This document shows, in pieces, positions 13,432 to 17,967 of a DNA stretch of 64,000 bases (the stretch's first letter is position 1; every line of letters begins with the position of its first letter). This DNA is from Herpetosiphon geysericola (GTDB lineage Bacteria > Chloroflexota > Chloroflexia > Chloroflexales > Herpetosiphonaceae). Under the pieces are notes generated by a model. The model did no database searches and was not told the DNA's origin. It saw only the letters and a program-made list of their open reading frames with translations. A program made the position numbers and the translations under genes. The DNA lies in the NCBI RefSeq assembly GCF_001306135.1, contig NZ_LGKP01000004.1, forward strand, positions 1 through 64,000. The letters run 5' to 3'.

Positions 13432-14060
13432 GGTGCTTTCCTGTCTAATTCCTTACTTGACCTGGCTGCTGACGAGCTGGTGCGGAAGATAATTGTTTTG
13501 GATACTGCATAGTTATCTTTCTCCTCCCTTCCGTCCCTCCGCTGGAGGGAGACGCATGGGGTTTTCATCCCCTGCACCCCTAATATTTGGGTTGGGGATT
13601 ATTACGGTTGCTTCTATTGCCCCATCCTTCTCGCCTTCGCGTTCTTCGCGTGCTTCGTGGTTTCATCCTTCGTAGAATTTTTCGCCTCCCTTCCGTCCCT
13701 CCGCTGGAGGGAAACGCTGGGGGTTTTCATCCCCCTGCACCCCCTAATATTTGGGTTGGGGATTATTACGGTTGCTTCTATTGCCCCATGCTTCTCGCCT
13801 TCGCGTTCTTCGCGTGCTTCATGGTTTCGTCCTTCGTAGAATTTTTCTCCTCCCTTCCGTCCCTCCGCTGGAGGGAAACGCATGGGGTTTGCATCCCCCT
13901 GCACCCCCTAATGTTTGGGTTGGGGATTATTACGGTTGCTTCTATTGCCCCATGCTTCTCGCCTTCGCGTTCTTCGCGTGCTTCGTGGTTTCTCAATCCT
14001 GACCTCTGATCCCTGATCCCTGACCCCTCATCCCTTCGTGCTCTTCGTGCTCTTCGTGGA
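13432..14060. repeat. Tandem array of about 163-bp repeat units
   Basis: No gene is visible. Three head-to-tail copies begin at 13523, 13685 and 13849. Each starts with a core CCTCCCTTCCGTCCCTCC, then GCTGGAGGG (forming a CCCTCC/GGAGGG hairpin), then a GGGG-TTTTCAT-CCCC hairpin, and ends with TTCGCGTTCTTCGCGTGCTTC. The third copy runs into GATCCCTGACCCCT-type repeats and a TTCGTGCTCTTCGTGG string that touches the stop codon of the next gene. Open frames across the array change nothing but the repeat and do not look like protein. Confidence 0.9.
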
Positions 14061-14588
14061 TCAAAGCTTCGCAGCGGCTTCAAGGTAGGCATTTTTGAGC
14101 GCAACATAGTTTTCGGCAGTGCGTCGAATGCGCTCATGCTGGGCTGGATCGAGCGGGCGAATTTTGCCAGGAATGCCCAAAACCAGCGAATTGGGTGGCA
14201 CGATCATGCCCTCGGTAACCAAGGCGCGGGCGCCAATCAACGAGCCAGCCCCAATCTGAGCGTGGTTCAAAATCACTGCGCCCATGCCAATCAGCACATC
14301 ATCGGCGACAGTACAGCCATGGACAATTGCGCCATGACCAATACTCACGCCAGCGCCAATTGTCAGCCAAGCATCGGGGTCGGCATGCAAAATTGAGCCA
14401 TCTTGAATATTGCAGCGTGCGCCAATGCGAATCAGGCCTTTATCGCCACGAATCACCGTCATCGGCCAAACGCTCACGTCGCTAGCTAACTCGACCGCGC
14501 CACAAACCAACGCTTGGGGCGCAATATAAACCCCTTCCGCACGCGCAACACAATCGCCAACGCAGGGAAATTGATAGTTCACAATCAA
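14061..14588 (-). CDS. Gamma-carbonic-anhydrase-like hexapeptide protein
   Basis: A 175-residue left-handed beta-helix protein of the YrdA/PaaY/CaiE family, usually a cytoplasmic trimer with Zn or another metal held between subunits. The expected His triad is present (H68 in ILHAD, H85 and H90 in GHGAIVHG), as is the family motif SVWPMTVIRGD. Hexapeptide repeats cover residues about 20-140, followed by a C-terminal helix. It follows the PhzF-like gene by four bases, so the two are co-transcribed. The TGA stop lies in a TTTGATCCACGAAG string that belongs to the dispersed repeat. Carbonic anhydrase activity cannot be assumed. Confidence 0.85.
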   Translation of the reverse strand: MIVNYQFPCVGDCVARAEGVYIAPQALVCGAVELASDVSVWPMTVIRGDKGLIRIGARCNIQDGSILHADPDAWLTIGAGVSIGHGAIVHGCTVADDVLIGMGAVILNHAQIGAGSLIGARALVTEGMIVPPNSLVLGIPGKIRPLDPAQHERIRRTAENYVALKNAYLEAAAKL

Positions 14589-15919: not shown

Positions 15920-16539
15920 GGTAAATCTCCTCAATCAAAACATATGAGTTAGAGTTTAACACAAACAGCTAGCAATGGGAATACTCTGGTTGGGGGAGAA
16001 GAGCATAGAACATAGAGCATAGAACATAATCCAAATAATCTGTGCAATCTGTGGCTAAAAATCGTGCTTCGTGGTTATCTTTCTCCTCCCTTCCGTCCCT
16101 CCGCTGGAGGGAAACGCCGAGGGTTTTCATCCCCCTGCACCTCCTAATAGTTGGGTTGTGGATTATTGCTTGGAGGTTGGGGAGAAGAGCATAGAACATA
16201 ATCCAAATAATCTGTGCAATCTGTGGCTAAAAATCGTGCTTCGCGGAATTTTTCTCCTCCCTTCCGTCCCTCCGCTGGAGGGAAACGCGGGGGTTTTCAT
16301 CCCCCTGCACCCCCTAATATTTGTGTTGGGGATTATTACGGTTGCTTCTATTGCCCCATGCTTCTCGCCTTCGTGCTCTTTGTGCTCTTCGTGGATCAAA
16401 CTTTCGCGCTCTTCGCGTTCTTCGCGGTTTCTTCCCTTCGTGGATCAAACGCTTAATTGACATTCATGGTCAACCTGTTATGATGATCCCGTTCCGGTAT
16501 CGTTTCCAGCCCGTTTCATAGCTAGATAGAGGTAGTGCT
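15920..16539. repeat. Repeat mosaic with a 172-bp tandem duplication
   Basis: No gene is visible before the LacI start. A 172-bp unit is duplicated in tandem (16015-16186 and 16187-16358). Each copy joins an AGAGCATAGAACATAAT string, a CTGTGCAATCTGTGGC string, and the CCTCCCTTCCGTCCC core (starts 16085 and 16257). The array continues as CTTCGTGCTCTTTGTGCTC and related strings to about 16455. Confidence 0.88.
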
Positions 16540-17567: not shown

Positions 17568-17903
17568 TTAGGCGAGATTAATACCCCGCCGACGGAGTTG
17601 TTCGACAACGGCTGCAAGCACTTTAAGCGGCTGCAAGCCCCCAACAAACAACACCTCATCATCAAATAAGGCAATTGGATAGGGCCAGCCTTCTTCAGCA
17701 AAATACTCAAGCTGATTGACGTGTTGCGCTTGTACCGCCGGATCATCAAGATCATAATAATTGACGCTCACTTGGGCGCCAACCAAGCGCTCCAACGAGA
17801 GTGCAACCGAATTTGCAACCTTCAACGAAGGCATGCGCGGGCCTCAGCCATAGCCACAACTGGCATCACTCGAACGCCCAAATATTTCCAATCGATATAC
17901 CAT
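17568..17903 (-). CDS. Thioredoxin-fold protein with an in-frame UGA (possible selenoprotein)
   Basis: From ATG 17903 one frame runs 111 residues if TGA 17844-17846 is read through. The deduced order is beta (YRLEIFG), a loop SCGYG-[UGA]-GPR, helix, beta (VSVNYYDL), helix, beta-beta (YPIALFDDEVLFVGG), helix: a full YuzD-like thioredoxin fold with Cys16 and the UGA position spaced CxxxU, where a redox Cys would be expected. Translation from ATG 17834 (88 residues, GAGG seven bases upstream) would lack strand one and the whole active loop. A promoter-like TATACT sits upstream of the longer start. Selenocysteine is an inference; a sequencing error, a disabled gene or a short-start protein remain possible. 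Confidence 0.6.
17819..17831 (-). promoter_or_regulatory. SECIS-like hairpin after the in-frame UGA
   Basis: CCTTC-GTT-GAAGG forms a 5-bp stem with a G-first apical loop beginning 17 bases after the UGA on the minus strand, with a possible outer GCA/TGC extension. Position and a G at the start of the loop match the loose bacterial SECIS pattern. A stem this short can arise by chance. Confidence 0.3.
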
Positions 17904-17939: not shown

Positions 17940-17967
17940 AGTATAGCAGATATCGATCAGCAACAAA
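17940..17967 (-). promoter_or_regulatory. Putative promoter of the UGA-containing gene
   Basis: On the minus strand TATACT (17945-17940) follows a TTGTTG string by about 15-16 bases. It lies 37 bases ahead of ATG 17903 and directly behind the chitinase terminator, so the gene has its own promoter. Confidence 0.45.

Follow-up and report, generated by a model that had tools for sequence, protein, structure and literature searches.

Thioredoxin-like selenoproteins and related families

Among prokaryotic selenoproteins, several thioredoxin-like families have been described, which comprise Trx with UxxC, Sec.1 with CxU, Sec.2 with UxC, SaoT, HUIPC, and SELENOW-like proteins with CxxU (PMC13188914). 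The bSECIS model asks for a loop of 3–9 nt with a G in one of its first two places and a stem of 4–16 bp at 16–37 nt from the UGA, with a free energy limit of -7.5 kcal/mol or lower (PMC13188914). A review table of 2026 compiles 119 prokaryotic Sec families and has no entry for DUF1462 or YuzD (PMC13188914). The DUF1462/YuzD family (PF07315), represented by the structure 1xg8 of SA0798 from Staphylococcus aureus, has no assigned function. Here we describe a gene in the window, i.e., the whole analyzed stretch of 64,000 nucleotides from Herpetosiphon geysericola (NZ_LGKP01000004.1, positions 1 to 64,000). To judge from its sequence and that of its homologs, this gene very probably encodes a selenoprotein of a family that is related to DUF1462/YuzD and, more distantly, to the arsenite metallochaperone ArsD, and we regard it as nearly certain that its in-frame UGA at 17844–17846 is read as Sec.

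A Herpetosiphon gene with an in-frame UGA

On the minus strand of the window one frame extends from ATG 17903 to the TAA at 17570–17568, and its sole interruption is the TGA at 17844–17846 within SCGYG-[TGA]-GPR. This is the same frame that had been noticed in an earlier reading of the DNA made without database searches, hereafter the sequence-only reading. Read through, the predicted selenoprotein CDS (17568–17903, minus strand) gives MVYRLEIFGRSSDASCGYG-U-GPRMPSLK..., a product of 111 residues with the predicted Sec as residue 20, to which homologs align over the whole length. Cys16 (codon 17856–17858, minus strand) is likely the resolving Cys. The alignments show CxxxU here and CxxxxU in other branches, with a replacement of this Cys in two members (see below). 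Pro76 (codon 17676–17678, minus strand) is invariant in the broad alignment and immediately precedes a strand, which we take to be the place of the cis-proline known from the thioredoxin fold. The promoter-like TATACT that had been pointed out upstream of the long start was found at 17945–17940 (minus strand) and is assigned as a -10 element by consensus only; TGCTATACT upstream is present also in L002 and L003, two other Herpetosiphon species. An Rfam scan of the gene region returned sub-threshold chance matches only. Elsewhere in the window, repeats with lengths of about 91 and 164 nt lie between genes in two clusters (13515–14068 and 16014–16474). They occur in several copies, the best of which are 92–96% alike, and many spurious ORFs are listed on them.

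A comparison of six Herpetosiphon species revealed a pN/pS of 0.167 upstream and 0.181 downstream of the UGA. The DNA 5' of the start codon varies far more among these species, some of which have another upstream gene. By this measure purifying selection is acting on both sides of the UGA, and both evolve as protein. The codon at the Sec position is TGA in all six species, and a correction of the bases at 17844–17846, by which the sequence-only reading expected its claim to fall, did not occur. The same reading had proposed to look for selA, selB, selC, and selD and had made its claim depend on selB and selC; all four genes are present in the window genome. SelB is encoded at C10:16063-17928 (320 bits), selA was found with 535 bits, the tRNA-Sec gene selC with 62 bits and likewise by ARAGORN, and selD, a Sec-containing form that itself has one in-frame TGA, with 376 bits. 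Moreover, selA is present in 10 of 12 TGA carriers of a first set, in which the completeness of the two others is about 75%. A second set of 12 genomes likewise has selA in 10; it was missing from G086, a TGA carrier that is 88% complete, and from G292, whose match is doubtful.

A conserved SECIS-like hairpin downstream of the UGA

The UGA is followed by a SECIS-like hairpin, GCCUUC-GUU-GAAGGU, at 17818–17832 (minus strand). Its stem GCCUUC/GAAGGU starts 11 nt after the UGA and has 6 bp when one G-U pair is counted, and its loop GUU, with the G in first place at 17826, starts 17 nt after the UGA. The sequence-only reading had described a G-loop hairpin with a stem of 5 bp starting 17 bases past the UGA; the hairpin is there, but it is the loop and not the stem that starts at this distance, and the stem is 1 bp longer. 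The register is fixed among the relatives, as the loop starts 17 nt after the UGA in each of the 42 members tested, which come from Chloroflexota and from the class of the Coriobacteriales, with G first in 41 of them. Over these 42 members the mean stem length is 7.6 bp, compared with 1.9 bp expected from synonymous-codon randomization. For the 6-bp stem of the window sequence alone, the same randomization gives a p of about 0.05, and for single members mostly 0.005 to 0.05, whereby a combined probability would not be a true one because the members are related. The hairpin counts do not include five sequences (L063, L068, L070, L071, and L074). In the Dehalogenimonas-like L068, L070, and L071 the loop lies 3 nt further downstream, and in L074 the motif differs. 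L063 (G181:C6, about 292–300) has the hairpin and the TGA together with a frame shift of 1 nt just 3' of the UGA, which is probably a sequencing or assembly error.

Furthermore, the hairpin covaries. Over 24 distinct sequences 89% of the cells pair, double changes occur at six of the eight pairs, and the covariation score was reached by none of 500 shuffles and collapses in slid registers. The double changes in the stem often accompany amino-acid changes between the branches; from L007 to L008 (Herpetosiphonaceae), a T-A pair became C-G via a synonymous CCT-CCC and a conservative Lys-Arg exchange. Among the third group of relatives, from the phylum to which an Eubacteriales MAG belongs, the hairpin is kept in 13 of 15 Sec members and absent from each of the six Cys members tested; the Sec members L151 and L157 have no hairpin in register. 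The family hairpin fits the published bSECIS rules for spacing, loop, and stem. The minimal hairpin of the window alone folds at -5.8 kcal/mol, which is weaker than the -7.5 limit, while the 54-nt stretch downstream of the UGA folds at -15.2 kcal/mol with the same hairpin within the fold, and the hairpins of several relatives have -7 to -10 kcal/mol. The UGA at 17846–17844 would be decoded as Sec by SelB together with Sec-tRNA(Sec), directed by the hairpin as candidate SelB site, a mechanism we infer from established bacterial Sec biology and whose parts are seen in the sequence.

Distribution of the family

A tblastn search of 60 related genomes identified a relative in 12 of them, with identities that go down to about 34%. 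These relatives come from different genera and families, and every one of them contains a single in-frame TGA, which sits at the Sec position wherever it was read. Searching 400 Chloroflexota genomes with a profile revealed more Sec members in other parts of the phylum, along with a single Cys member, L066. A GTDB scan with the profile of the second Chloroflexota branch then yielded members, each of them with TGA, in one MAG of the Eubacteriales and one of the Coriobacteriales. In the class of the Coriobacteriales MAG, 64 of 398 genomes matched, 63 of these with TGA; the motif in this class is CFSGG-U-GPSWSPEEIT. In the phylum of the Eubacteriales MAG, 83 of 398 genomes matched; nearly all of the best-scoring members have TGA and the lower-scoring ones mostly do not, and those of the latter that were read carry TGC or TGT in its place. 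As far as these matches reach, the family is spread over Chloroflexota, the class of the Coriobacteriales, and the phylum of the Eubacteriales MAG. The homolog search suggested for the read-through protein, run with tblastn and with profiles, has led to TGA homologs in three groups and to Cys codons at the same place in distant members. These homologs extend N-terminally through the UGA, and do not all begin at the position of ATG 17834, the outcome that the sequence-only reading had named as speaking against it. No relative was found in plasmids by tblastn or in viral contigs by a single-protein scan.

The active-site motif of the family is C-x3/4-U-G-P. At the Sec column, the 66 members read have Sec in 55 cases and Cys in 11, and Trp never occurs. 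A tree of the family needs three Sec/Cys changes and is weakly resolved because of the few columns; the Cys members are mostly found in a clade of their own, with L162 (CFSGG-C-GPGED) placed among Sec members. In L010 (ATRHG-U) and L011 (YSRHG-U), from the genomes G024 and G021, Sec is retained and the upstream Cys is replaced. The sequence-only reading is thus qualified in that the Sec position, and not the upstream Cys, is general. L012 (G009), from the same family of genomes, kept both C and U, and its frame ends early. L074/L079 (G132:C145) is a second, divergent protein of the same genome, with SCG-U-GSSCGPSCGSDC and a family-like C-terminal part. Four candidates were not accepted as members: L067 is doubtful, and L069, L072, and L073 resemble dehydrogenases and seem to be unrelated to the family.

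Predicted fold and profile matches

An AlphaFold2 model computed with seven sequences (pLDDT 86.9, pTM 0.80) has the order of strands and helices of thioredoxin. In this model residue 20 lies in the loop that leads into the first long helix, and Pro76 immediately precedes a strand. The model agrees with the view that reading through gives a thioredoxin fold and that a product of the short start would be devoid of the first strand and the active loop, as had been proposed from the translation. The nearest solved structure is the YuzD-like 1xg8 with a Foldseek TM of 0.64 and a Z of 9.4 over 100 residues (rmsd 3.4), a fold match that alone does not prove DUF1462 membership; by Foldseek it is followed by ArsD (3ktb, 3kgk, 3mwh), and thioredoxins come next. 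The DUF1462 profile PF07315 matches the window protein with 19.9 bits, which is below the Pfam gathering cut-off of 25, and gives weak matches to 8 of 10 near members. Several Sec members exceed this cut-off, namely L062/L083 with 42.9, L064/L084 with 33.0, L094 with 30.4, and L065/L086 with 29.1 bits. With the ArsD profiles of Pfam and NCBIfam the window protein has no match, and the best-scoring relative, L152, reaches 25.4 bits with PF06953 (cut-off 27) and 24.3 bits with NF033727 (cut-off 90). None of the models of NCBIfam release 20, including those for selenoproteins, was above its cut-off for the family; the Cys relative L172 scored 18.8 bits with HUIPC_Trx_selen (cut-off 105).

With the homologs and the model at hand, other ways of reading the UGA can be weighed. 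If it were a true stop, the protein would start at ATG 17834, from which an ORF of 88 residues indeed exists, and the upstream frame would be a relic. However, the Met encoded there is not conserved beyond the GPRMPS branch, where Val, Trp, Gln, and others take its place, purifying selection is as strong on the supposed relic as on the remainder, and the short form would be an incomplete version of the modeled fold. Moreover, a stop does not account for the kept TGA, the SECIS-like hairpin after it, and the Cys of distant members, and we consider this possibility very unlikely. A UGA read as Trp or another residue, due to suppression or a change of the genetic code, would be in line with a frame that continues past the UGA. 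Yet the column holds Sec or Cys in all homologs read, and neither the hairpin nor the Sec machinery would have an explanation, so that this reading appears even more improbable than a true stop. Incorporation of Sec remains our interpretation of the UGA.

Neighboring genes and possible function

The window gene has a same-strand, chitinase-like neighbor on one side and a convergent gene for a LacI-type regulator on the other, both named from sequence. Two further Herpetosiphon species, as well as two other genera of the same taxonomic family, have the gene directly 3' of a gene for a protein of about 340 residues. Nine distinct loci have a thioredoxin-reductase-like gene (CxxCD) close to the Sec gene, and the three such neighbors that were scanned are all above the TIGR01292 cut-off. 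In L188 trxA lies 12 nt upstream of the family gene, OsmC-like genes are neighbors in several loci, and in L131 and L132 a seleno-PDO gene (UPYC) is located near the family member, so that two selenoprotein genes are close together. This seleno protein disulfide oxidoreductase, HIQVFVTPT-U-PYC, is encoded around 7267 on the reverse strand in L131 and around 6328 in L132. No TrxR or Trx gene adjoins the family gene in the Herpetosiphon and Coriobacteriales-class loci examined. In L176, L178, L179, L182, L186, and L187 one copy of the family adjoins a queC-like gene (named from sequence), and some of these genomes have another copy near a TrxR gene.

From the predicted fold, the conserved Sec and Pro, and the TrxR-like, trxA, OsmC-like, and seleno-PDO neighbors of the relatives, we assume that the protein probably acts as a selenol oxidoreductase that is linked to thioredoxin and thioredoxin reductase. 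The product would be a 111-residue protein of predicted thioredoxin fold with Sec before the first long helix, whose selenol may attack an oxidized or electrophilic substrate. A selenylsulfide could then form with the upstream Cys where this is present, and thioredoxin/thioredoxin reductase would regenerate the protein. An internal selenylsulfide in all members was rejected, since L010 and L011 lack the Cys.

The protein might instead handle metal(loid)s or selenium and sulfur, with the Cys/Sec pair binding and passing on As(III), Hg(II), or selenium species, similar to ArsD with arsenite and without electron shuttling; this differs from our preferred explanation in function alone. ArsD being the second family by fold and the sub-cut-off ArsD matches of L152 point in this direction, and so does the gene context of a distant Sec branch. 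In L134, L135, and L136 (Dehalogenimonas-like G154, G126, and G087), the gene for a Sec protein with the motif SC-U-GP[KR]GQSSET has on one side a gene for an ACR3 arsenite pump (TIGR00832, 465 bits) and on the other one for an SO_0444-like transporter; upstream there is also an ArsR-like gene. The Sec protein of this branch is possibly an ArsD-like selenoprotein, as far as can be told from sequence. In L173 (G822), YedE-like and TusA-like genes, named by eye from sequence, follow the Sec gene directly, which suggests a link to selenium or sulfur handling. However, the arsenic-gene context is limited to L134–L136, a branch that is linked only weakly to the rest of the family (E about 1e-4), and no ars genes were found near the members examined from Herpetosiphon, other main-branch Chloroflexota, or the class of the Coriobacteriales, while several main-branch loci adjoin Trx/TrxR genes. 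Metal(loid) handling as the function of the family is therefore rather unlikely. Similarly doubtful is a combination, in which a YuzD/ArsD-type branch of the thioredoxin fold has adopted Sec in three or more bacterial groups and its branches serve both Trx/TrxR redox reactions and metal(loid) or selenium handling; if both roles were true, this would be a selenol-based metallochaperone-like family, a type that the sources searched do not describe. For the window protein the thioredoxin-linked oxidoreductase is the role we favor, and such a redox role can be tested directly, given the Sec/Cys pairs, the fixed register of the SECIS, and the neighboring TrxR genes.

Comparison with known systems

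The open-access papers searched contain no relevant link of YuzD, DUF1462, Herpetosiphon, or Coriobacteriia with selenoproteins. The sequence-only reading had proposed an unlisted selenoprotein family, and this holds with respect to NCBIfam, the 119-family table, and the open papers. We therefore consider the proteins a new selenoprotein family, of known kind, that is unlisted in NCBIfam release 20, the 2026 table, and open papers. Gene callers that treat TGA as stop cut or miss these genes, and therefore the family loses its likely catalytic residue in the databases for many genomes. Compared with the described families, DUF1462/YuzD is the best fold match and shares the thioredoxin-like fold and the length; several Sec members are above its Pfam cut-off, whereas the window protein is below. 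A selenocysteine form of DUF1462/YuzD is not recorded in the sources searched, and the family described here offers a functional lead for these proteins. ArsD (PF06953, NF033727) has, like the family, a Cys-rich loop that precedes the first helix and has Cys-Gly-Pro at its end. It is second-best by fold with weak profile matches of relatives, but the scores are all below the cut-offs, the window's branch has no ars context, and the family has Sec in place of Cys. The CxxC or UxxC active site of classical thioredoxins is not found in the family, whose motif is CxxxU or CxxxxU. From the thioredoxin-like selenoproteins listed at the outset, the family differs by its C-x3/4-U-G-P motif and by having no above-cut-off NCBIfam match, whereas it has in common with them the place of Sec, within the active loop of the thioredoxin fold, and a SECIS that follows shortly after.
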